From: Pseudomonas sp. B21-015
GTDB lineage: Bacteria > Pseudomonadota > Gammaproteobacteria > Pseudomonadales > Pseudomonadaceae
Assembly (NCBI RefSeq): GCF_024749285.1
Contig: NZ_CP087196.1
Span: 744,001-808,000, forward strand
Direction of reading: 5' to 3'
Length of the DNA stretch: 64,000 nucleotides
Made by a program: the position numbers and the translations under genes. The notes beneath the pieces are model-generated. The model did no database searches, was not told the origin of the DNA, and was given only the letters and a program-made list of their open reading frames with translations. This document shows positions 14,498-26,289 of the stretch, piece after piece; position 1 is the first letter of the stretch; each line of letters starts with the position of its first letter.

Positions 14498-16702
14498 TTA
14501 ACTGAATAAAGTGGTCACATTGGCCCGTGCCGAGTGCAGTTTCTTGTAGCTATCGATCAACCGCAGGTGCCTGTCGAGCCCCTCCAGTTTCATGCTGGTC
14601 GGCGTCAAGCCATGGAAGCGCACGCTGCCGTTCACCGATCCGATTGCTGCATCTGTCCGCTCGTTGCCAAACATCCGGCGGAAATTGGCCTCGTAGTCTT
14701 CCAGCTCCAGGTCTTCGTCCAGTTCCATCTCCAGCACCACATTGACGGCCTGATAGAACAAGCCACGCTCAACCGTGTTGTCGTTGTACTGCAGGAACAT
14801 TTCTACCGCTTCTTTTGCCTCTTCAAACCGCTGCAAGGCGAGATAAATCAGCAGCTTCAACTCCAGGATCGTCAGCTGACCCCAAGCCGTGTTGTCGTCA
14901 AACTCGATGCCGATCAAGGTGGTGATGTCGGTGTAGTCGTCCAGCTCACTTTCCACCAGGCGTTCAACCAGCGCTTGCAGTTCGTCTTCGTCCAGGCGAT
15001 GCAGGTTCAGGATATCGGTGCGGAAGAACAGCGCTTTGTTGGTGTTATCCCAGATCAGATCGTCCGCGGGATAGATTTCCGAATAGTTCGGTACCAGGAT
15101 GCGGCAGGCCGTTGCACCGATATGCTCGTAGACCGCCATGTACACTTCTTTGCCCATGCCTTTGAGAATGCCGAACAAGGTCGCGGCTTCCTCGGCATTC
15201 GAGTTTTCACCCTGGCCGGAGAAGTCCCACTCCACGAATTCGTAATCCGATTTTGAGCTGAAGAAGCGCCACGACACCACGCCGCTGGAGTCGATAAAGT
15301 GCTCGACGAAGTTATTCGGCTCGGTCACTGCATGACCTTCAAAAGTCGGCTGGGGCAAGTCGTTGAGGCCTTCGAAGCTGCGGCCTTGCAGCAATTCGGT
15401 CAGGCTGCGTTCCAGCGCCACTTCCAGGCTCGGATGCGCGCCGAACGAGGCGAACACACCGCCGGTACGCGGGTTCATCAACGTGACGCACATCACCGGG
15501 AATTCACCCCCCAGGGACGCATCCTTCACCAGCACGGGGAACCCTTGTTCTTCCAGCGCCTGAATACCGGCCAGTATCCCGGGGTACTTCGCCAGCACGT
15601 GAGCCGGTACATCCGGCAGGGCAAATTCACCTTCGATGATTTCGCGTTTTACCGCGCGTTCGAAGATCTCCGACAGGCACTGCACCTGGGCTTCGGCCAG
15701 CGTGTTACCGGCACTCATGCCGTTGCTCAGGAACAGGTTTTCAATCAGGTTGGACGGGAAATACACCACCTCGCCGTCCGACTGGCGCACGTACGGCAGC
15801 GAGCAGATGCCGCGCTCTTCATTGCCCGAGTTGGTATCGATCAGGTGGGAGCCACGCAGCTCGCCGTCGCGGTTGTAAATCTTCAGGCAGTACTCGTCGA
15901 GGATTTCGGCCGGCAGTGCATCTTTACGGCCTGGCTTGAACCAGCGTTCGTCCGGGTAGTGCACAAACGCTGCGTCGGCGATGTCTTCGCCCCAGAACTG
16001 GTCGTTGTAGAAGAAGTTGCAGTTGAGTCGCTCGATAAACTCGCCCAACGCCGACGCCAACGCGCCTTCCTTGGTCGCACCCTTGCCGTTGGTAAAGCAC
16101 ATCGGCGAGTGCGCATCGCGGATATGCAGCGACCACACATTGGGCACGATATTGCGCCACGAGGCGATTTCAATCTTCATGCCCAGGTCCGCCAGAATGG
16201 CCGACATGTTGGCGATGGTTTGCTCCAGCGGCAGATCCTTGCCGGCAATATAGGTGCTCGCCTCTGAGTTGGAAGCAGGCATCAACAAAGCCTGGGCATC
16301 GGCGTCGAGGTTGTCCACCTCTTCGATCACAAACTCAGGCCCGGCTTGCACCACTTTTTTCACGGTGCAACGGTCGATGGAACGCAGGATGCCCTGGCGG
16401 TCCTTGTCGGAGATGTCCGCCGGCAACTCGACCTGGATCTTGAAAATCTGGTTGTAGCGGTTTTCCGGATCAACAATATTGTTCTGCGACAGGCGGATGT
16501 TATCCGTAGGGATATTGCGCGTGTCGCAGTACAGCTTCACAAAATACGCCGCACACAGCGCCGACGAAGCCAGGAAGTAGTCGAACGGACCCGGTGCCGA
16601 GCCATCGCCCTTGTAGCGGATAGGTTGATCGGCCACCACCGTGAAGTCATCGAACTTGGCTTCAAGTCGAAGGTTGTCGAGAAAGTTGACCTTGATTTCC
16701 AT
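14498..16702 (-). CDS. OsmC domain / YcaO domain fusion protein
   Basis: This 734-residue fusion has two parts. Residues about 1-145 are an OsmC/Ohr-like domain with two cysteines (Cys50 in SSALCAAYF and Cys112 in SIDRCTVKKV) placed like the peroxidatic/resolving pair. Residues about 148-734 match the length and layout of E. coli YcaO, with ATP-binding patterns GKGATKEGALASALGEFIER and QCLSEIFERAVKRE and a helical C-terminal part. YcaO domains activate amide backbones with ATP; E. coli YcaO assists RimO in beta-methylthiolation of ribosomal protein S12. No peptide substrate gene lies beside it. It is 120 bp downstream of the yjf cluster on the same strand. Confidence 0.9.
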   Translation of the reverse strand: MEIKVNFLDNLRLEAKFDDFTVVADQPIRYKGDGSAPGPFDYFLASSALCAAYFVKLYCDTRNIPTDNIRLSQNNIVDPENRYNQIFKIQVELPADISDKDRQGILRSIDRCTVKKVVQAGPEFVIEEVDNLDADAQALLMPASNSEASTYIAGKDLPLEQTIANMSAILADLGMKIEIASWRNIVPNVWSLHIRDAHSPMCFTNGKGATKEGALASALGEFIERLNCNFFYNDQFWGEDIADAAFVHYPDERWFKPGRKDALPAEILDEYCLKIYNRDGELRGSHLIDTNSGNEERGICSLPYVRQSDGEVVYFPSNLIENLFLSNGMSAGNTLAEAQVQCLSEIFERAVKREIIEGEFALPDVPAHVLAKYPGILAGIQALEEQGFPVLVKDASLGGEFPVMCVTLMNPRTGGVFASFGAHPSLEVALERSLTELLQGRSFEGLNDLPQPTFEGHAVTEPNNFVEHFIDSSGVVSWRFFSSKSDYEFVEWDFSGQGENSNAEEAATLFGILKGMGKEVYMAVYEHIGATACRILVPNYSEIYPADDLIWDNTNKALFFRTDILNLHRLDEDELQALVERLVESELDDYTDITTLIGIEFDDNTAWGQLTILELKLLIYLALQRFEEAKEAVEMFLQYNDNTVERGLFYQAVNVVLEMELDEDLELEDYEANFRRMFGNERTDAAIGSVNGSVRFHGLTPTSMKLEGLDRHLRLIDSYKKLHSARANVTTLFS

Positions 16703-16822: not shown

Positions 16823-17980
16823 TCAATCGAGTATCAGATGCGGCAAGAACCGGCTCGAATCCTTGGTAATCAAACTGTTGTCCTCGCGCACGCCGATGCC
16901 GGCCGCTTGATCCCCGATCACCCAGGAACCGATCAGCGTGTAGCTGTCGCCAAACTTCGGCAGCGGGGCGAACTCCTGAAGGATAAACGGCGCGTCGGTG
17001 TAGGGTCCGTCCTCTTTCACGATCAGCCCCTCAGCAGTTTGCAGCTCGATGTTGGCACCTTCCCGGGAGAAGAACGGCTTGCGTACCCAGCCCTTGGGCA
17101 CGGCTTTGCTCGGGGCGGCGTCCAGGTACGACTCGAGCAGGTTCGGGTGACCTTTGTTGAACTCCCACAGCAGCGGCAGGATCCCCTTGTTGGAGATGAT
17201 GGATTTCCAGGCCGGCTCGAAAAACTGTGTGTCGCTCTGGGCGATCGCTGCGCCGAAGGGTTCGTGGAAGATGAACTCCCAGGCATGCAGCTTGAACAGG
17301 TGAGGAATCCAACGATCTTCTAAATCGACGAAACGTCCTTCACTGGTGAGGCCGATGTCCTCGATATCGATATGCCGCGATTCGATGCCGACCTTTTCCG
17401 CGACCAGACGCAGGTAATCGGTGGTGCCCTTGTCTTCGACCGAGTCTTTCATCGAGGCGAAATAGAAGGGCTCTTTGAGCTGCAGTTGGGCAAAGGCCTG
17501 ATGCAGCTTGGTGTCGATGCTGTTGAACTGGTCGGCATGCTTGGGCAGCAAGCCGCGTTCGATGCATTGCTCAAGCCAGCCCCACTGAAACGCTGCCGCC
17601 TCATACAGGCTGGTCGGCGTGTCGTAGTTGAGTTCCAGCAATTTGGCCGGCCCGCTGCCGTTGTAGGAGAAATCCATGCGCCCATACAGGTGCGGGTGGC
17701 CTTCGAGCCATGAAGTGCGAACCATGTCGAAGAATGGCGCGGGAATGCTCAGGCGCTCCAGCAGCTCCTCGCTCTGAACCACGCGGGCCACCAGGTCCAT
17801 GCACATCTCATGAAGCTCGGTGGTCGGGTCTTCGAGATCGTTCTCGATCTGTTTGAGCGTGAACTGGTAGTACGCGCTCTCGTCCCAATAGGGTTCATCG
17901 TCGATGGTATGGAACAGAAAGCCGAGACTCTCGGCGGTCTGTTTCCAGTCATGACGCTCTGCGCAGAGGATTTTCTTCAT
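16823..17980 (-). CDS. Glutathionylspermidine synthase-like ATP-grasp ligase (YgiC/YjfC family)
   Basis: This 385-residue protein matches the synthetase half of glutathionylspermidine synthase. Family stretches include YGRMDFSYNGSGPAKLLELNYDTPT, the WEFIFHEPFG segment, WVRKPFFSREGANIEL (ATP-grasp binding) and VIGDQAAGIGVRED near the end. The family forms amide bonds with ATP. This version lacks the amidase half of E. coli Gsp, and its real acceptor is unknown. It is the last gene of the yjf-like cluster, 12 bp after the YgiB-like lipoprotein; the ygiB-ygiC and yjfM-yjfC pairing is also seen in E. coli. Confidence 0.9.
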   Translation of the reverse strand: MKKILCAERHDWKQTAESLGFLFHTIDDEPYWDESAYYQFTLKQIENDLEDPTTELHEMCMDLVARVVQSEELLERLSIPAPFFDMVRTSWLEGHPHLYGRMDFSYNGSGPAKLLELNYDTPTSLYEAAAFQWGWLEQCIERGLLPKHADQFNSIDTKLHQAFAQLQLKEPFYFASMKDSVEDKGTTDYLRLVAEKVGIESRHIDIEDIGLTSEGRFVDLEDRWIPHLFKLHAWEFIFHEPFGAAIAQSDTQFFEPAWKSIISNKGILPLLWEFNKGHPNLLESYLDAAPSKAVPKGWVRKPFFSREGANIELQTAEGLIVKEDGPYTDAPFILQEFAPLPKFGDSYTLIGSWVIGDQAAGIGVREDNSLITKDSSRFLPHLILD

Positions 17981-17992
17981 GGCCCTGTTTCC

Positions 17993-18721
17993 TTAACTGC
18001 TCGACCCGCCAAAACTCTTGCTCGATCCGCCCCAGCCGCTGCGTGCGCTAGCCTGGCTGCCGAAGCCGCCGCGGGAGGTGGACGATGCAACAGACACCGG
18101 CTTACTGCGGGTGATGGTGTCGGTGTAACTGCCGCTGCTGCCGTAGCGCGCCTGATTGGACCTGTTGAAGGTTGAACCTGACGATACCCGCTGGCTGAGT
18201 GTCGAGGACGAGTAGTCACCGCGATCATCGCGATAGCGATAGACCGGTTCGGAGTAGTAACTGTTGCGGTTGCTGCTGAGCATGTTGCCGATCAGCAACC
18301 CGGTCAGCAGGCTGCTGCCGGAGAAGCCTGACCCGGCGGCGTTCGCTTCCGACGCGGGCAGTTTGGCCTTGGCCGCGTCCACTTCGGCTTGCGTGACCTC
18401 GCCATCGGCGTTCAGCTCGAAACCGCCGAGCTTGGGGATGAACTTGCCGGCGGAATCCTGCTGGCACCAGTCGGTAACGAAGTCGGCGTCGCAATCGGCC
18501 TGGTTGTCGTACACCGGCGCAATGCTTCGATGCTGGGCCATGGCCTTCATATAGGCGTCAGAACAGATGTCGACCGGGAGCTTTTCATCGGCGCACTGCT
18601 GGACGGACTGGAAGTTGTACTTTTTGTGTATCTCGTAGGTTTTTTCCGTCGGCCCGCAGCCTGATATCGCCATGGCGACCGATGCTGCCAGGGAGAGCTG
18701 AACGTACTTGCTTCGTTTCAT
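17993..18721 (-). CDS. DUF1190 lipoprotein, YgiB/YjfM family
   Basis: This 242-residue predicted lipoprotein has a short basic start, a hydrophobic helix and the lipobox AISGC with Cys22 as lipidation site. Mature-domain features are NFQSVQQCADEKLPVDICSDAY and paired cysteines, followed by a low-complexity Ser/Gly/Arg-rich tail ending SSKSFGGSSS. The tail resembles that of YgiB (UPF0441). Its function is unknown. Its fixed partnership with the ATP-grasp gene makes it a candidate envelope substrate or tether. Confidence 0.88.
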   Translation of the reverse strand: MKRSKYVQLSLAASVAMAISGCGPTEKTYEIHKKYNFQSVQQCADEKLPVDICSDAYMKAMAQHRSIAPVYDNQADCDADFVTDWCQQDSAGKFIPKLGGFELNADGEVTQAEVDAAKAKLPASEANAAGSGFSGSSLLTGLLIGNMLSSNRNSYYSEPVYRYRDDRGDYSSSTLSQRVSSGSTFNRSNQARYGSSGSYTDTITRSKPVSVASSTSRGGFGSQASARSGWGGSSKSFGGSSS

Positions 18722-18740
18722 CGGGATCTCCGTGGCGCAA

Positions 18741-19169
18741 TCAGTTCTGGGAAGGGGTCATGCACGCGGCATTCAACATGCCGACGCTGATGGCCACTGC
18801 CGCGATATAGATCCCCGCAGCGATTTCACCTTTCTTGATGCGCTCAGAGGCGCCTTTTAGCACCAGGCTGGTCACCAGAAACGCCAGCAGTTGAACGAAA
18901 GCGGCGATCACTGCCCAGACGACGAAGTCCAGAATGCTGATCGAGTAGGCGATCACATTGCTGGCCGGAATGGCGAAACCAATGATGGCGCCGCCCAGGG
19001 CGATCGCAGCCGCCACGTTGCCCGAACGGATCAGTTCGAACTCCTTGTGCGGTGTGATTCGGGTGTAGATGAACTGGAACAGCGCGAACAGCACGGCGGC
19101 GCCGAGAATGTACAAAACAAACCCGAGCACGGCGGCTTTGTTCAGGGAGATGGAGAGCGCTTCAAGCAT
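18741..19169 (-). CDS. DUF350 membrane protein, YjfL family
   Basis: This 142-residue protein has four predicted membrane helices in two similar halves: a helix near 12-34, an RSGNVAAAIALGGAIIGFAIP segment, a helix around 80-105 and a C-terminal helix. The polar residues inside the helices are typical of DUF350 proteins. Biochemical function is unknown. It lies between yjfK and the YgiB lipoprotein, 19 bp from the latter. Confidence 0.88.
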   Translation of the reverse strand: MLEALSISLNKAAVLGFVLYILGAAVLFALFQFIYTRITPHKEFELIRSGNVAAAIALGGAIIGFAIPASNVIAYSISILDFVVWAVIAAFVQLLAFLVTSLVLKGASERIKKGEIAAGIYIAAVAISVGMLNAACMTPSQN

Positions 19170-19183
19170 GGACTTCTTCCTTT

Positions 19184-19858
19184 TTAAAAAGTGTTCAGGT
19201 CGGTGGTGTACAGCGAGATGCCCAACGAAGTGCTCAAGCTGATGGTGCCTTCGGCGTCTTCTTCGACGGAAAACAGCAGGAATTCCCGGCGATCGGTCAG
19301 GCCGGTTTCGCGGGCGTACAGCATCGAATGGTGCTCGATGCTGTAGGACTCATCCGGATTGGTCAGGCGCTCGCTCAAGGCCACCAGTTCCGTCTGGCCG
19401 TTCTCGGTACCCCATTCGCGGGTGTATTCGACACCGTTGTGGGTGTAGGTCGGCAGGCCGATCAGGCTTTGAGGGCCGGCCAGTCGACGCAGCTCCGCTT
19501 CACTGTTGATGGTGACGTAACTGAGGTAGTTGAACAGGATCACCGACTCGACCTGTCCGGCGATGTCGCCGGTGGTGTGCACTTGCAGCCAGTAGTCTTC
19601 GTCGTTCATGTAATAGCGCGACAACCAGGTCGATTGCCCGAGATCAACAGTGCCGGCGCTCCAGATCTGTTGGGAGCCAGGAATGACCACTGTGGTATTG
19701 CCGTCGAGCAGCAACTTCAGGGTGGTATCGAACATCACCCCTTTGCCGAATGCCAGGCCCAGCGGCCCGGTGGCGGGCGGGCTGTCGTTGGCTGTCCATT
19801 TCGACTCGGTATTCGCTGTCGGGGCCTCAAGCCCCATCAACTGTTTAAACCATCCCAT
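19184..19858 (-). CDS. DUF2491 protein, YjfK family
   Basis: This 224-residue protein starts at the ATG giving MGWFKQLMGLEAP; the open frame is longer, but the upstream part overlaps the channel gene in another frame. It is predicted soluble with no signal peptide and a beta-rich body (GVEYTREWGTENGQTELVALSERL). The start overlaps the channel gene's end by 14 bp, which implies translational coupling. Function is unknown; it is a constant member of yjfIJKLM-type loci. Confidence 0.85.
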   Translation of the reverse strand: MGWFKQLMGLEAPTANTESKWTANDSPPATGPLGLAFGKGVMFDTTLKLLLDGNTTVVIPGSQQIWSAGTVDLGQSTWLSRYYMNDEDYWLQVHTTGDIAGQVESVILFNYLSYVTINSEAELRRLAGPQSLIGLPTYTHNGVEYTREWGTENGQTELVALSERLTNPDESYSIEHHSMLYARETGLTDRREFLLFSVEEDAEGTISLSTSLGISLYTTDLNTF

Positions 19859-20879
19859 TGGAGATTTCCTTGAGGCGCGTGGAGGCGATGTAGAAGAGTT
19901 CACCGCCCTCAACGCGAGTGGCGCCGGGCGGGTTGATCGAAGGGTGGCGGGCGCCTTTGGCGCGGTAGCCGATAAGGGTAGCGTTGTGGCGTTCTTTCAT
20001 CTGTGCGTACAGATCGCCGAACGTTGCTTCAAAAGCCTCGGGCAGTTTCATCAGGTATTGGGTGGCGCCTTGGCCCACGCAAAGCAATTCATTGATGACC
20101 ACAGACGAGCCCGGGTCCTGAGAGGCACGCACCAACATCTCGATGGCCATGCTTGAGGTGCATTCCAGGCTGGGGGCGTAGGCGCTGGCGAGCGCGGCGA
20201 TTTCACTTTCATTGAAGTGGGCGACCACATGCCCGACAGGGCTCAGTTGATTGACCGCCAGCACGGTGGCCAGGGTCAGATCGTCTGAATGGGTTCGCAC
20301 CAGTACGCGTTCGGCGCCAGGCACGCCGGCCCGCAGCAAAAGCGCGGCAGCGGACAGGCTTTCGCCTTTGATAAAGGCCGCTTTGCCCGGCATGGGGTTT
20401 TCTTCAAGGGTGCAATCGCAAATGACGATCAGGTTGTCATTGGACGTTTCGTCCTGCAGCAGTAATTCAATCACCCGCTCGCTGGTCGCGCCTTCCCAGC
20501 CGATGAGAACGGTGTGGCCGACCTTGCCGGTGAAATCGCCTTTGCCCTTCATGCCTTTTCTCCATACATCGATGACACTGCTGGTGGTTTTGCCGATGGC
20601 TGCCGTCAGCAGCGCAATGCCCCCGAGCATGACCCAGGTAGCCACGAAAATCCGTCCCGCGGATGTCTGCGGCGCGAGATCGCCGTAGCCGACGGTGAGT
20701 GTGGTGGTGAGATAGAAGTAGATAAACGTGGCGGGGGCGATGAGGTGTTGTTCGCCCAGAAGCGCCAGGCCCAGCCAAGCCGTGGTCATGTGTATGCCCA
20801 AGGCAATGGCCAGGCCCGCCCAGCCGAACCGATGGAAGAAGGACGAGGCGTACGCACGCAACAAAAGGAAAATCGACAT
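19845..20879 (-). CDS. K+-channel-like protein with cytoplasmic RCK/TrkA-N-type domain
   Basis: This 344-residue protein has a two-helix pore module. A helix near 17-40 is followed by a pore loop with the potassium selectivity filter TVGYGD (62-67) and a helix near 78-98. A basic linker leads to a Rossmann-like regulatory domain (GHTVLIGWEGATSERVIELLL...IVICDC) and a small C-terminal domain. This is the MthK-like plan for ligand-gated K+ conductance; the nucleotide-binding glycine pattern is degenerate (GWEGAT). It lies inside the yjf cluster between the rhomboid and yjfK, which suggests coupling of membrane potential to this envelope system. Confidence 0.88.
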   Translation of the reverse strand: MSIFLLLRAYASSFFHRFGWAGLAIALGIHMTTAWLGLALLGEQHLIAPATFIYFYLTTTLTVGYGDLAPQTSAGRIFVATWVMLGGIALLTAAIGKTTSSVIDVWRKGMKGKGDFTGKVGHTVLIGWEGATSERVIELLLQDETSNDNLIVICDCTLEENPMPGKAAFIKGESLSAAALLLRAGVPGAERVLVRTHSDDLTLATVLAVNQLSPVGHVVAHFNESEIAALASAYAPSLECTSSMAIEMLVRASQDPGSSVVINELLCVGQGATQYLMKLPEAFEATFGDLYAQMKERHNATLIGYRAKGARHPSINPPGATRVEGGELFYIASTRLKEISNGMV

Positions 20880-20952
20880 TACATCCCTGACTCCGTGGGG
20901 GGGCTCATTCCTGGCGACGTAATCGCTCTGGCGTCTGAGTGCTCAAGTGCGG

Positions 20953-21516
20953 TTACCGGGCGGCATTAAACCTGCTGCGCGGCGTAGATAAAAGTACCTT
21001 GGCTGCAATAAACCCGGCGATCGCACTAAAAATATGCCCTTCGAAGGAAATGCCCCGGCGAGGAAGGAAGCCAAAAATCAGCCCGCCATAGAGCAGGGCG
21101 ACGACACTGGCCGTTATCAGGTTGCTCCAGCTTCTCTGGAACCAGGCGCGCGACAGGAGGTACGCCCACAGCCCGAATACCCATCCGCTGGCACCGATGT
21201 GTACGCCTGCAAAACCGAACAGCCAGATCAGCGAGCCGCCCAGCAGAATAATGATAGCGCTGACGGCCACGAACCGATTGAGCCCTTCGATAATGACCAG
21301 AGTACCGAGGATCAAGAAGGCAATCAGGTTGGCGCTCAGGTGTGCAAAGGATGAGTGCAAGAAAGGCGAGGTGATGATGCCGGCCAGTCCGTGCAATGTT
21401 CTCGGCACCAGGCCGAAGGCAGTAAGGCTGTAGCCGGTCGCCGCATTGAGCAGATGCAGCGCAACCATGAAGAGGGCTACGCCTGCGATTGTCTTGAAAC
21501 CCTTCAGGGCATCCAT
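20953..21516 (-). CDS. Rhomboid-family intramembrane serine protease
   Basis: This 187-residue protein has about six predicted helices. The catalytic dyad is intact: Ser110 in GASG and His161 in FEGHIFSAIAGF. The oxyanion/loop motif of bacterial rhomboids is present (His54, His59 and Asn63 in FLHSSFAHLSANL). It should cleave membrane-anchored substrates within or near the bilayer. No GlpG-like N-terminal cytoplasmic domain is present. A REP pair separates it from pspA upstream; the channel gene follows 73 bp later. Confidence 0.92.
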   Translation of the reverse strand: MDALKGFKTIAGVALFMVALHLLNAATGYSLTAFGLVPRTLHGLAGIITSPFLHSSFAHLSANLIAFLILGTLVIIEGLNRFVAVSAIIILLGGSLIWLFGFAGVHIGASGWVFGLWAYLLSRAWFQRSWSNLITASVVALLYGGLIFGFLPRRGISFEGHIFSAIAGFIAAKVLLSTPRSRFNAAR

Positions 21517-21565
21517 CCTTGACCTCGACTCAACTCGACTCGACGAAAATTGAAGCGCAACCCAT

Positions 21566-21653
21566 TGTGGGAGCGAGCCTGCTCGCGAAGCGTTGTGTCA
21601 GCAACATTGATGTCGACTGACACTCCCTCTTCGCGAGCAGGCTCGCTCCCACA
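21566..21653. repeat. REP pair between pspA and the rhomboid gene
   Basis: Two inverted REP units (tgtgggagcgagcctgctcg and its complement) flank a short spacer. It sits inside the probable yjf operon and may stabilise the upstream yjfI-pspA message or reduce downstream expression. Confidence 0.9.
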
Positions 21654-21679
21654 GGTTATGCATCCGGCACGTGAGTCGA

Positions 21680-22378
21680 TTACTCGGCCGATTTTTTCTT
21701 CAGGCGTTCCAGGATCGCATTGGCGCTGCCTTCGTTCGGCGTGATGCCGGCTTCGCGCAGCTTGCGCTCCAGGTCGGTGCCGGTCGACGCATCGGCCAGT
21801 TCGTCCTGGGCTTGCAGTTCAGCGGCGCGTTGCTGTTGCTTGGCTTGCAGACGGTTCAGCGTACCGACAGCGGTTTCCAGCTTGCCGTTGGCGCCGCCAC
21901 TGGCGATCGAAGCGCTGACCTGGGCTTTCTGGACGCTCTCGCGAGCCTTGGCCATGTCCACTTGCTGACGCAGGCTTTTGATGCGGTTTTCGGCCTTGGT
22001 GATGTCTTTGCGCATGTTGTCTGCGTAACCGCCGAATTCGGTGGCCTGCTTTTGCTCGACATCCAGTTCATTGGTCAGGGTCGAAATGGCTTCGGCCACT
22101 TCCAGTGCCAGGTCTTCGCGATTGGCCTGGATTGCGGACAGGGCCTTGGATTCCAGGTCCTTGATCTTGGCGTTGTACTCGCTGACGCGATCAGCCGACA
22201 GTTTGTGCTTGGCCATGATGGTGACCAGCTCGCGCTTGGCGTTGGCCAGCGCGCTGTCAGCATCGCGAATTTCCTGGTCGAGGATGCGCAGGGCCTGTTG
22301 GTCGACGATCGATTCGCCGACTTCATTGGCACCGCCACGCAGCGCGGTGAACAATTTGCTCCAGATGGACTGAGTCAT
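21680..22378 (-). CDS. PspA/IM30 family membrane-stress protein (YjfJ type)
   Basis: This 232-residue protein is almost entirely alpha-helical and coiled-coil, with the family start MTQSIWSKLFTALRGGANEVGESIVD and the segment RILDQEIRDADSALANAKREL. PspA proteins bind anionic membranes and oligomerise as ESCRT-III-like scaffolds that limit proton leakage. No pspBC or pspF genes are nearby and no sigma54 promoter was found, so its control differs from the classical phage-shock operon. It is 24 bp downstream of yjfI. Confidence 0.93.
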   Translation of the reverse strand: MTQSIWSKLFTALRGGANEVGESIVDQQALRILDQEIRDADSALANAKRELVTIMAKHKLSADRVSEYNAKIKDLESKALSAIQANREDLALEVAEAISTLTNELDVEQKQATEFGGYADNMRKDITKAENRIKSLRQQVDMAKARESVQKAQVSASIASGGANGKLETAVGTLNRLQAKQQQRAAELQAQDELADASTGTDLERKLREAGITPNEGSANAILERLKKKSAE

Positions 22379-22402
22379 TGGATATTTCCTGTTCCCGAAT
22401 AA

Positions 22403-23092
22403 TTAATTGAAAAAGCGTTCGAAGGCTTCACTGGCGCGCTGGACGTTGTCGACGAGGGTTTTGACCTCGGTCACGACGTTGGTCAGGCTGGAGTCGGAGC
22501 TCAGTGCGCCGAACATGTTGTAAACGATCTGCCCGTTAGGCATGGACTCGATACCGATCGAGGACAACGGGAACATTTCCCGGCTGCGCAGAACGGCATC
22601 GTTGAAGGCCGGTACATCGTTGATGGACTCGACATCGACCAGAACGGTATCGACGATGATCTGATCGCCAACCACTGCGATGTAAATCGGCAAGCCACCG
22701 AAATCGTTCATTTCCAGCTTGATGCTGGATTCGGAGCCTTGAACGAGGGAAAGGGTGATGTCGTTCGCAATCACTTCGTCGAGGGCCTGAAGGGCGCTGT
22801 AGAGGCGATCGATGTTCCAGTTATTACCTGCGCTCATGTAATTCTCCGACATGAATGAGCCAGCCAGAATCGGTTGGCGTAGCTGTTTCTCCATCTGCTT
22901 GAGCAGGCTTCGGTTTTCGGGAAGCACCCAAGTCTCGTGTTTCACATACCCGGCGGCACCCAGGCCCGCGCGCATCTGCTTCATGTAGAAGCTGGATGGT
23001 TTTTTCGCGGAGGGTTTCGAGCGCTCTCCCTTGCGACTCGCCGAATCGGTAACAGACCCGGTAGGCGGATCTGATGGAGAGCTGCTGTTCAT
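22403..23092 (-). CDS. DUF2170 protein, YjfI family
   Basis: This 229-residue protein is the first gene of the cluster. It has a basic, Ser/Pro-rich N-terminal extension (about 1-35), a short helical segment (FYMKQMRAGLGAAGYVKHETWVLP), and then a DUF2170 domain (NWNIDRLYSALQALDEVI onward) with a mixed beta structure. The extension is longer than the bare DUF2170 domain; an internal Met-Ser at 22838-22836 (MSAGNNWNIDRL) could start a domain-only form. Function is unknown; it is always found with PspA-like genes. Confidence 0.8.
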   Translation of the reverse strand: MNSSSPSDPPTGSVTDSASRKGERSKPSAKKPSSFYMKQMRAGLGAAGYVKHETWVLPENRSLLKQMEKQLRQPILAGSFMSENYMSAGNNWNIDRLYSALQALDEVIANDITLSLVQGSESSIKLEMNDFGGLPIYIAVVGDQIIVDTVLVDVESINDVPAFNDAVLRSREMFPLSSIGIESMPNGQIVYNMFGALSSDSSLTNVVTEVKTLVDNVQRASEAFERFFN

Positions 23093-23118
23093 GATGCTGA
23101 CCCCGTTGTGAAAAAATA

Positions 23119-23176
23119 CTCACGCGTGAGAAACACTACAGGCAATTTTTGCGGCCTTCAATAGCTCACGCGTGAG
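23119..23176 (-). promoter_or_regulatory. Promoter of the yjf cluster bracketed by two identical palindromes
   Basis: Two perfect copies of the 12-bp palindrome ctcacgcgtgag occur at 23165-23176 and 23119-23130. Between them, on the minus strand, are a -35-like TTGAAG (23161-23156) and a -10-like TAGTGT (23138-23133) with 17-bp spacing. Each palindrome lies only 2-3 bp outside a promoter box, the geometry of an operator that blocks polymerase. The first codon of yjfI is 26 bp beyond the inner palindrome. The cognate regulator is not encoded nearby. Confidence 0.65.
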
Positions 23177-23250: not shown

Positions 23251-23340
23251 TGTGGGAGCGGGCTTGCCCGCGATAGCGATGTAACAGTCAACAAAGATGT
23301 TGGATGTGATGGCCTCATCGCGGGCAAGCCCGCTCCCACA
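23251..23340. repeat. REP pair between yjfI promoter and isochorismatase gene
   Basis: Inverted units beginning tgtgggagcgggcttgcccg and ending with the complement enclose a spacer of about 40 bp. The pair lies downstream of the isochorismatase stop codon (minus strand is read first at 23900) and upstream of the yjf promoter. Confidence 0.9.
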
Positions 23341-25179: not shown

Positions 25180-26289
25180 ATGACCCCAACAAATCGCAAG
25201 AAACTGGTGCTCGCCCATTCGGTGCGACCCGATGCTCCGCTGCACGAAGTCGAAACCAATCGCGCGCTGGCCCGTTGGCTGGCACAGATCGTCGGGCTTG
25301 AATACGGCGGCAGCTACGACCTTCAATTGCACAGCGGCCGTGACCTTTATCTGTTGCCGACCCAGACGCTGGTAGGCGTCGCTGCTGCTCGGCAGCTGGG
25401 CGTCAAAGGGCCGGAGGATTTGTGGGGCGGTTACGTCGACCACGATTTCATCTGCACCAAAGCCATCAGTCATGGCTTGTTAAGCCGCTATGCGTTCGCC
25501 CCCGAAGGTTGGGCGCCCCTGTTTTCCGAGCGGGTCCGCAGCGTCGTGCTCGATGGCCTCAGCGTGTTCTCCCTGGACGATGCCCGCCCGGCAGCGGAGC
25601 ATCTGCTCTACAGCGGCCCGATCCGTATGAAGCCAATTCATGCCTGCGCCGGACGCGGTCAGGAAGTGATCAAAAGCCTCGGCCAGTTCGACGCCATCCT
25701 CGCTCGTCCCGATGCCAAAGCGTTGTTCACCGAAGGTGTGGTGCTGGAGCAGGACTTGACTGAGGTGATCACCCACAGTGTTGGTCAGAGTTTTATCGGC
25801 GACAACGTGCTGAGTTATTGCGGTGATCAATACTTGACCGAAGACGGGGAGGGTGAGCAGGTTTATGGCGGGTCCAACCTGTTGGTGGTGCAGGGCTATT
25901 ACGAGGATTTGCTGGCGCTGGAACTGCCGGATGAGGTGAGGCTGGCGATCCAGAAGGCGCAGGTGTTCGATAGCGCGGCGGATGAAGCCTACCCCGGTTT
26001 CTACGCCTCGCGGCGCAACTACGACATCGCCCAGGGGTTGGACTGTAACGGCCAACAACGCAGCGGCGTGCTCGAACAGTCCTGGCGCCTGGGCGGTGCC
26101 AGCAGTGCTGAAGTCGCGGCGCTGCAAAGCTTCGTCAACGACCCCGGCCTGCGCGCGATTCGCGTGTCGTCGGTCGAAACCTATACCGACCAACCGCTGC
26201 CGCTGAACGCCATTGAGGTCTACCGCGGACCGGCGGAACACAGTGACTTTCTTCTCAAGTACGTAACGGTCAAATCCTATGACGGCTAG
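25180..26289 (+). CDS. DUF3182 family protein, possibly ATP-grasp-like
   Basis: This 369-residue predicted cytoplasmic protein has no signal peptide. The middle shows a pattern that resembles an ATP-grasp site (IRMKPIHACAGRGQEVIKSL and later GVVLEQDLTEV), my inference rather than a known assignment. The C-terminal part contains YGGSNLLVVQGYYEDLL and DEAYPGFYASRRNYDIAQG. A GAAGGGGAA ribosome-binding site precedes the ATG. Its stop overlaps the hydrolase start by 11 bp, so the two are coupled. Function is unknown. Confidence 0.82.
   Translation: MTPTNRKKLVLAHSVRPDAPLHEVETNRALARWLAQIVGLEYGGSYDLQLHSGRDLYLLPTQTLVGVAAARQLGVKGPEDLWGGYVDHDFICTKAISHGLLSRYAFAPEGWAPLFSERVRSVVLDGLSVFSLDDARPAAEHLLYSGPIRMKPIHACAGRGQEVIKSLGQFDAILARPDAKALFTEGVVLEQDLTEVITHSVGQSFIGDNVLSYCGDQYLTEDGEGEQVYGGSNLLVVQGYYEDLLALELPDEVRLAIQKAQVFDSAADEAYPGFYASRRNYDIAQGLDCNGQQRSGVLEQSWRLGGASSAEVAALQSFVNDPGLRAIRVSSVETYTDQPLPLNAIEVYRGPAEHSDFLLKYVTVKSYDG

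Follow-up and report, generated by a model that had tools for sequence, protein, structure and literature searches.

We consider it likely that the eight genes analysed here form a self-regulated DUF2170-PspA membrane-protection operon, with YjfI as its repressor and a rhomboid protease as a recurrent, optional effector. Operons of the DUF2170-PspA kind are widespread, and in the literature we found no account of how they are switched. Going by the accessible text of the published descriptions, the link to a rhomboid and regulation through a YjfI domain and its candidate operators are new here, within a cluster class that has already been published.

Gene order and composition of the cluster

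All eight ORFs lie on the minus strand between 16823 and 23092 of the window, by which we mean the whole 64,000-nt stretch of DNA analysed (Table 1). This is where the earlier note had placed eight co-directional genes, and every product scored above its curated Pfam cut-off (DUF2170 148.3, PspA_IM30 148.1, Rhomboid 74.2, Ion_trans_2 44, DUF2491 146.6, DUF350 122.9, DUF1190 95.8 and GSP_synth 474.7 bits). DUF2170 is single-copy in this genome, which ruled out a second, bac-type DUF2170 cluster. Gaps of 24, 163 and 73 bp separate yjfI from pspA, pspA from the rhomboid gene, and the rhomboid gene from the channel gene. The overlapping genes described earlier come down to a single 14-bp overlap between the channel gene and yjfK, which probably starts at the ATG at 19858 rather than at the TTG that opens the mechanical ORF. 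All other junctions are gaps, the last three of 14, 19 and 12 bp.

Table 1. Positions of the genes and control elements in the window.
Feature	Position	Strand	Basis or remark
Operator 1, palindrome CTCACGCGTGAG	23165..23176	.	Directly upstream of -35-like element
-35-like TTGAAG, 4/6 consensus	23156..23161	-	TTG at equal offset in 53/54 inter-operator sequences
-10-like TAGTGT, 3/6 consensus, 17-bp spacer	23133..23138	-	TAG at equal offset in 53/54 inter-operator sequences
Operator 2, palindrome CTCACGCGTGAG	23119..23130	.	Directly downstream of -10-like element
yjfI/bacA-like regulator, with a MazE-like-related domain near the N-terminus (residues 33-75, approximately) and a DUF2170 CesT-like domain (91-228)	22403..23092	-	
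pspA, YjfJ/BacB type	21680..22378	-	Pfam PspA_IM30
REPIN-like hairpin separating pspA from rhomboid	21566..21660	-	-75.5 kcal/mol computed for 21560-21665
Rhomboid protease	20953..21516	-	Pfam; translation with GASG serine and EGH histidine motifs
Two-helix K+ channel (TVGYGD), RCK-like domain	19845..20879	-	Pfam, PDB alignment, translation
yjfK (DUF2491)	19184..19858	-	Probable ATG start overlaps channel stop
yjfL membrane protein, DUF350	18741..19169	-	Pfam
yjfM/ygiB lipoprotein, DUF1190, C-terminal tail RGGFG conserved	17993..18721	-	Pfam
yjfC/ygiC ATP-grasp acid-amine ligase (GSP_synth)	16823..17980	-	Pfam; PDB 7uk6 YjfC, 7uk8 YgiC

The 163-bp gap is mostly occupied by the REPIN-like hairpin, whose computed stability could mean that the genes form several separate transcription units, with yjfI-pspA split from the rest. 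We think this unlikely, given that the co-directional order is conserved in many genomes, that REPIN-like repeats are dispersed across the 64-kb window, and that bacA to bacF of the related bac operon are co-transcribed by RT-PCR, according to the accessible text of PMC10948618.

The arrangement extends beyond one strain, a point on which the earlier reading had been made to depend: DUF2491 occurs in 105 of 249 Pseudomonas genomes and in 29 of 398 genomes drawn from the phylum. Comparative gene order supports a conserved co-directional membrane/PspA module with a gene of the amide-ligase family. It does not support a fixed eight-gene unit. Both rhomboid and channel, the full order of the earlier note, are present in 32 of the 99 Pseudomonas loci where pspA is in view; another 18 contain the rhomboid only, 9 the channel only and 40 neither. 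The core yjfI-pspA-yjfK-duf350-ygiB-ligase is conserved, and the two genes appear to be gained and lost around it. Classification as a defence system was rejected (in PADLOC, PspA alone gave matches, which were weak and fell on long coiled-coil proteins), as was a mobile element (the cluster had no near match in the plasmid collection). Two distant, partial YjfI matches were seen in phage records.

Paired palindromes and the N-terminal domain of YjfI

The palindrome CTCACGCGTGAG occurs exactly twice in the whole 6.59-Mb genome, and both copies flank the putative yjfI promoter. A consensus promoter scan did not list this promoter, and its -10-like element is weak; the offset counts in Table 1 refer to inter-operator sequences of the 56-bp class. 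A paired site was found in 71 of 249 Pseudomonas genomes, one per genome, and the reversed-pattern control in 0 of 249. All 71 pairs lie at yjfI, 201-298 bp upstream of the DUF2170 domain, and all 71 genomes fall within the 105 that carry DUF2491. Across 98 loci, TCACRYGTGA was present 162 times in promoter windows and 0 times in 1.82 Mb of flanking sequence. The bac-type loci (L286-L302) have a site in 17/17 cases, and 15 of them have two sites, 22-23 bp apart. Related sites occur at 3/5 alphaproteobacterial-type promoters; L074 and L076, which are of alphaproteobacterial type and contain the domain motif, gave no site of the tested pattern, and L080 carries another repeat, TTCGCGAA. Position 23176, given as the end of the cluster in the earlier note, is the outer edge of operator 1. 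That note mentioned neither the double operator nor the N-terminal domain of YjfI, which are the best evidence on control of the operon.

Comparison of genomes associates this domain with the sites. In Pseudomonas, loci with the extended YjfI have at least one site in 97/97 cases, and both genomes of the genus whose only DUF2170 protein lacks the domain (G476 and G412) have 0 sites. Outside the genus, 17/17 loci without the domain also have 0 sites, and part of the association is phylogeny since these loci are distant relatives. One residue of the domain tracks the operator core: His goes with CGCG in 68/68 cases and Arg or Lys with CATG in 47/47 entries (46 places). This covariation largely follows clade; the loci with His and CGCG amount essentially to a single clade, so independent switches are few. 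Exceptions are L134 and L161, two His loci that combine a CGCG site with a CATG site, and L132, with one CACG site. In G469, the second, bac-type DUF2170 protein has lost most of the domain and kept two operators, whose CGCG core matches the operators of the intact YjfI of that genome.

Pfam MazE-like (PF11455) matches the YjfI of L071 above the gathering score (22.9 against 22), and the N-terminal domain of the window's YjfI gave no Pfam match at E <= 10. Profile-profile comparison of this domain with two MazE-like proteins returned a probability of 34% and an E of 4e-4. Its predicted structures form a helix, an extended stretch and a helix, so a ribbon-helix-helix label was dropped and the domain is called MazE-like-related only. 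With the domain as query, phmmer found no PDB chain, and the best Foldseek E was 8.8, on a model of mean pLDDT 71. In the alignment with the NCBIfam BacA model (206 positions), the window's protein matches from its residue 30 onward, so the model takes in the N-terminal domain; YjfI scores 210.8 bits against the 300-bit cut-off of this equivalog, NF050185. The C-terminal domain superposes on BacA, CesT and ExsC and has the CesT/T3SS-chaperone fold.

For the N-terminal domain, Pfam, Foldseek and VIA-align listed no DNA-binding fold. This would suit a different arrangement, in which the palindromes are read by an unlinked regulator conserved in Pseudomonas and the YjfI domain serves, for example, in oligomerisation or in binding a membrane partner. 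We find this improbable, as the paired sites occur at yjfI alone, similar sites stand at bacA-type promoters and related ones at some alphaproteobacterial-type promoters, G412 and G476 lack both the domain and the sites, and the site core follows a residue of the domain.

From sequence, the best reading is that the operon encodes its own DNA-binding regulator in YjfI, which probably acts as a repressor. Its N-terminal domain would bind the two palindromes bracketing the promoter and repress the operon, and its CesT-like domain may bind PspA. In the likelier version, YjfI with spare PspA would be the repressing form. Membrane damage would pull PspA onto the bilayer and the promoter would open, giving more PspA and accessory membrane proteins. 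Alternatively, YjfI could bind the operators as an activator, or PspA could relieve repression (positive feedback) rather than act as a co-repressor. The position of operator 1 also suits activators and the promoter elements are weak, but operator 2 would lie over the expected transcription start, and Bac proteins accumulate in a bacA mutant (accessible text of PMC10948618). Either variant is, in our view, somewhat unlikely. The operator/domain pair makes autoregulation by YjfI directly testable.

A broader proposal is possible, and we put it forward tentatively. YjfI/BacA may be an unrecognised family of stress autoregulators that joins an antitoxin-type DNA-binding domain to a T3SS-chaperone fold, with PspA in the role of the toxin. 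Transcription of interchangeable membrane effectors would be set by how much free PspA there is relative to YjfI, and the rhomboid would cut an operon-encoded or PspA-bound membrane protein. If this is true, the client of the regulator is the membrane-repair scaffold PspA itself.

The rhomboid and the other accessory genes

The window protein has the Pfam Rhomboid domain, the GxSG serine motif and the histidine motifs of a rhomboid protease; as a rhombosortase (TIGR03902) it was rejected at 23.9 bits against a cut-off of 84. Of the 69 near-complete relatives in the 249 Pseudomonas genomes, 66 lie inside DUF2170-PspA operons, 51 of yjf type and 15 of bac type, a count that leaves out a remnant in G508. 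The rhomboid as a meaningful member of the set is thereby supported more strongly than the earlier note, made from the letters alone, could have known. The gene could still be a passenger by chance: 49 of the 99 Pseudomonas yjf loci whose pspA is in view do without it, the G508 remnant contains a stop, a match in G541 has an in-frame TGA, and relatives in other genera adjoin genes that, judged by eye, are dsbB/coq7- or lemA-like. We give this little credence beside its recurrence in two distinct operon types, its position directly after the ligase gene in 5/27 non-Pseudomonas loci, and the catalytic motifs kept among the fetched loci (serine 54/56, ExH 56/56). The rhomboid is more plausibly a recurrent optional effector of these operons, and the link offers a concrete setting for seeking what a bacterial intramembrane protease does. 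Joint gain or loss of rhomboid and channel gave no signal with the 4 usable pairs. One paper with both "rhomboid protease" and "PspA" (PMC9527704) was set aside; in its accessible text PspA is the pneumococcal surface protein, a different protein.

The channel has an Ion_trans_2 pore at residues 30-102, and residues 52-278 align to MthK (PDB) across pore and RCK. The TVGYGD channel of the earlier note stands, and its RCK domain is weak by Pfam (TrkA_N 17.9 bits, below the 23.8 cut-off). That note had the module sense depolarisation. Voltage sensing by the channel was rejected: the protein is a two-helix pore with an RCK-like part, its best solved relative, MthK, is ligand-gated, and it matches the NCBIfam "voltage-gated potassium channel protein" PRK10537 at 61.1 against 425 bits, over the later model positions 158-350 of 403 only. 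Nor does it look like an insertion. Because the channel is present in 18/27 non-Pseudomonas DUF2491 loci and, by its accessible text, in a published operon (PMC11237479), its absence from some loci is more likely loss.

The 385-aa ligase scored 137.6 bits against 882 for the bifunctional glutathionylspermidine synthetase/amidase equivalog, and its closest solved relatives are YjfC and YgiC. Judged from sequence, it may act on the YgiB lipoprotein, whose RGGFG tail is conserved. A C-terminal GG in YgiB (19/23 non-Pseudomonas, 42/104 Pseudomonas) is only suggestive of a ligase acceptor; the window's YgiB ends in SSS. As a whole, the earlier reading is partly supported.

Comparison with known systems

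In E. coli, membrane repair by the ESCRT-III-like PspA has been studied in depth through the PspF system, where PspA is an effector and a possible feedback signal. In contrast, none of the eight genes matched PspF, PspB or PspC in Pfam, and the window's PspA reaches 21.4 bits against 242.95 for the classical PspA equivalog TIGR02977. Antitoxins typically bind palindromes at their own promoter. The N-terminal domain of YjfI is similar in sequence to MazE-like antitoxins (PF11455), with the window's own domain below Pfam detection; here, however, the eight genes include no toxin-family match and the domain has a CesT-like one as its fusion partner.

The closest published relative is the CesT/Tir-PspA and ATP-grasp class (Ravi 2024, PMC11237479). 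In its accessible text, this class contains the DUF2170/YjfI-PspA dyad, a K+ channel with an intracellular ligand-sensing domain, DUF2491, DUF350, DUF1190 and a glutathionylspermidine-synthetase-like ATP-grasp, so the channel is no novelty. The present cluster likewise has DUF2170 beside PspA, the ligase, DUF350, DUF1190 and DUF2491 in one gene run, and the channel with its sub-threshold TrkA_N. The rhomboid is a feature of the present cluster, with 0 occurrences in that paper. The operators and the YjfI N-terminal domain were likewise not found in the accessible text, where a ribbon-helix-helix factor appears only in another operon class, as a gene of its own at the end.

For the P. aeruginosa bac operon, the accessible text of PMC10948618 proposes a chaperone or regulator role for BacA and sigma54 control of bac, and mentions a BacA-BacB interaction as unpublished. 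The sigma54 proposal counts against the YjfI-operator explanation. The solved BacA chain (8q8o) covers the DUF2170 part only, which suggests that the structure is silent on how BacA regulates because it lacks the proposed DNA-binding domain. Downstream, the bac-type region analysed encodes flotillin-like and AAA proteins, not the channel, DUF2491, DUF350, DUF1190 and ligase. The E. coli yjfIJKL operon, as described in the accessible text of PMC12492005, has no channel and no rhomboid; it shares YjfI, YjfJ (a PspA homologue), YjfK and YjfL with the present cluster, and in heat-adapted strains a promoter mutation raised its expression.

The cluster and its genomic surroundings

All eight open reading frames of the yjf-like membrane cluster described in the earlier note were recovered where it had placed them, on one strand, each with a curated family match. 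The gaps between the genes are short, except for 163 bp between pspA and the rhomboid gene. The genome consists of one contig of 6.59 Mb. Among the best 80 of 149 matches, from which records of the same genome were possibly left out, the window YjfI is at most 98% identical to proteins of Pseudomonas sp. GM18, P. lini and others.

Several features in and around the cluster are listed in the table. Two hairpins of the TGTGGGAGCGGGCTTGC type lie on both sides of yjfI-pspA, and further copies of this repeat unit are dispersed across the window. The OsmC-YcaO fusion gene (TIGR03549, 1500 bits) adjoins the cluster downstream on the same strand, and this neighbor is retained in part of the genus. 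The DUF3182 gene (436.6 bits), a second gene of unknown function near the operon, is directly followed by an alpha/beta-hydrolase gene.

Features of the cluster and its surroundings (window positions unless stated)
Feature	Position	Remark
OsmC-YcaO fusion gene	14498-16702	
yjfK, mechanical ORF	19184-19912	TTG start; overlaps channel by ~70 bp
yjfK, ATG	19858	channel overlap 14 bp
REPIN-like hairpin	21566-21660	in pspA-rhomboid gap
Operator copies	23119-23130; 23165-23176	CTCACGCGTGAG
REPIN-like hairpin	23251-23340	
DUF3182 gene	25180-26289	
DUF2170 of YjfI	residues 91-228	family match

Operators at the yjfI promoter and the YjfI N-terminal domain

The palindrome CTCACGCGTGAG has two copies in the entire genome, with -35/-10-like elements between them. 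A consensus promoter scan of the window did not list this yjfI promoter. The operator pair was found in 69 fetched loci, with a spacing of 56 bp in 54, and 53 of these 54 have TTG and TAG at constant offsets. Across 249 genomes of the genus, the pattern TCACRYGTGA-N26-50-TCACRYGTGA occurs once per genome in 71, while the reversed pattern, used as a control, occurs in none. Every one of the 71 paired sites precedes a DUF2170 domain by 201-298 bp, and all 71 genomes carry DUF2491. The perfect pair is missing in the other 34 DUF2491 genomes; some of these pair a perfect with an imperfect site or contain a TTACATGTAA variant, and 5 lack a DUF2170 match. When single sites were counted in 98 Pseudomonas loci, 162 fell inside the promoter window and none in the surrounding 1.82 Mb.

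Related palindromes accompany the bac-type genes, many of which are named BacA by database hits; 15 of 17 loci have two, spaced 22-23 bp. A TACGCGTA palindrome lies near yjfI in 3 of 5 alphaproteobacterial-type loci with a VK-x-E motif, and the other two (L074 and L076) have no site of this pattern. L077 falls in the type that carries the name Phenylobacterium. Separately, L080 encodes an extended YjfI and, by eye, has two neighboring TTCGCGAA palindromes upstream that are unlike the other operators.

The solved BacA chain aligns only to residues 91-227 of the window YjfI, which form a CesT-fold domain. A second conserved region spans residues ~33-75, and R41, G48, K51, R72 and P74 are invariant in 61 YjfI, BacA-type and Phenylobacterium-type proteins. 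Pfam MazE-like (PF11455) gave 7 hits in 150 genomes, among them the YjfI of G119 (22.9 bits by hmmscan, cut-off 22). Of nine other YjfI-family proteins, two of BacA type scored below threshold and seven had no match; the window domain did not match PF11455 either. Profile comparison of its residues 36-75 with two MazE-like proteins gave an E value of 4e-4 but a probability of 34%. AlphaFold predicts a helix, an extended stretch and a helix (core block-mean pLDDT ~68-86), for which searches for solved folds and sequence relatives found neither.

This domain and the operators are associated. Each of the 97 Pseudomonas yjf loci in which the domain was scored has one site or more. No site was found in the only genus yjf locus scored without it (G476), in any of the 17 non-Pseudomonas loci without it (L077 and L080 not among these) or in G412, whose sole DUF2170 gene lacks it. 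G469 carries a second, bac-type DUF2170 gene that has lost most of the domain and retains two operators. Their core is CGCG, as at the intact yjf copy of that genome, versus CATG in the 17 bac-type loci. This exception fits the association, as if these operators were now read in trans.

The core also varies with the VK-x-E residue. Among 120 entries (one place counted twice), x = His goes with CGCG in 68 of 68 (65 purely) and x = Arg/Lys with CATG only (47 of 47); of five entries with Leu, Met or Ile, three have CGCG and two no site. The His entries come essentially from a single clade, so this covariation represents few events, not 115.

Distribution of the rhomboid and channel genes

DUF2491 was present in 29 of 398 genomes drawn from the phylum and 105 of 249 from the genus. 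The 131 loci fetched represent all genomes with a match in either search, and gene order was assigned with iterative profiles. Excluding 6 of the 105 Pseudomonas loci (window counted) without pspA in view left 99. The earlier note had pointed to a rhomboid and a channel gene within the cluster; both are present in 32 of the 99 loci, rhomboid only in 18, channel only in 9 and neither in 40. On a yjfK-ligase protein tree, built by a quick method with 30 of 96 inner branches weak, the distribution of the rhomboid implies 7 or more changes, that of the channel 7. Outside Pseudomonas, the channel occurs in 18 of 27 loci. L084 and L085, in which none of the other yjf genes turned up, have DUF2491 flanked by ORFs of ~600 aa (upstream) and ~250 aa (downstream), possibly a different DUF2491 system.

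Relatives of the window rhomboid (E <= 0.001) occur in 70 of 249 genus genomes, or 69 after exclusion of G508, whose locus retains the channel and has a 25-residue rhomboid remnant with a stop. Of these, 51 begin 548-1770 bp from a DUF2491 match. Another 15 are on the same strand and contig as a bac-type DUF2170 gene and 9.5-10.1 kb downstream of it, one (G541) with an in-frame TGA inside the match, and 3 (G409, G512 and G558) are in genomes without detected DUF2170. A rhomboid match is missing in two of the 17 genomes with DUF2170 and without DUF2491 (G412 and G457). In each of the 17 bac-type loci, the gene after DUF2170 is pspA. The one bac-type region fully analyzed encodes, in this order, DUF2170, PspA, a 213-aa membrane protein and a 681-aa flotillin-like protein (both labeled by eye, without Pfam match), then a DUF3686/AAA protein, rhomboid and a PLD-like protein.

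Beyond the genus, the rhomboid lies immediately 3' of the ligase in 5 of 27 loci. In two further genomes, G340 and G348, it shares a contig with DUF2491 at a distance of 15-17 kb. Among the 30 of 398 phylum genomes with rhomboid relatives, linkage to DUF2491 or DUF2170 was seen, among the places checked, only for these seven, the window's genome, G130 and G190, which counts against an association of the rhomboid with the operon. At seven other places in the phylum, no cluster genes lie within 1.5 kb of the rhomboid, the span checked; two have, by eye, dsbB/coq7- and lemA-like neighbors.

Possible circuit and relation to known systems

YjfI probably represses its own promoter, and PspA would tune YjfI via the CesT-like domain. 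In the available text of the BacA paper (PMC10948618), Bac proteins accumulate in a bacA mutant and an interaction of BacA with its PspA partner BacB is cited as unpublished; both fit this proposal. In heat-adapted E. coli strains, the promoter carries a deletion 80 bp upstream of yjfI which the authors of that study believe raised yjfIJKL (PMC12492005, text in part), in keeping with a membrane-stress role.

The ligase belongs to the YjfC/YgiC type. A C-terminal glycine of YgiB is a possible acceptor, because its RGGFG tail is kept in 104 of 104 Pseudomonas and, with RGGFG-like variants, in 21 of 23 other loci, and part of the proteins end in GG (19 of 23 non-Pseudomonas versus 42 of 104 Pseudomonas). 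In L161, the duf350-ygiB-ligase block is apparently duplicated in tandem, with one ligase scoring lower.

Searches of the open-licence PMC literature did not turn up a description of the recurrent rhomboid partner or the self-encoded circuit. The word "rhomboid" is absent from the available text, supplementary tables aside, of Ravi et al. 2024 (PMC11237479), Popp 2022 (PMC9239133) and the BacA paper. A bacterial paper with both a rhomboid protease and PspA (PMC9527704) was rejected as precedent, as its available text means a different PspA. According to the part of Ravi et al. available, their operon class combines a CesT/Tir (DUF2170)-PspA dyad with a glutathionylspermidine-synthetase-like ATP-grasp protein, a ligand-sensing K+ channel, DUF350, DUF1190 and DUF2491 (PMC11237479). 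The window cluster is a member of this class.
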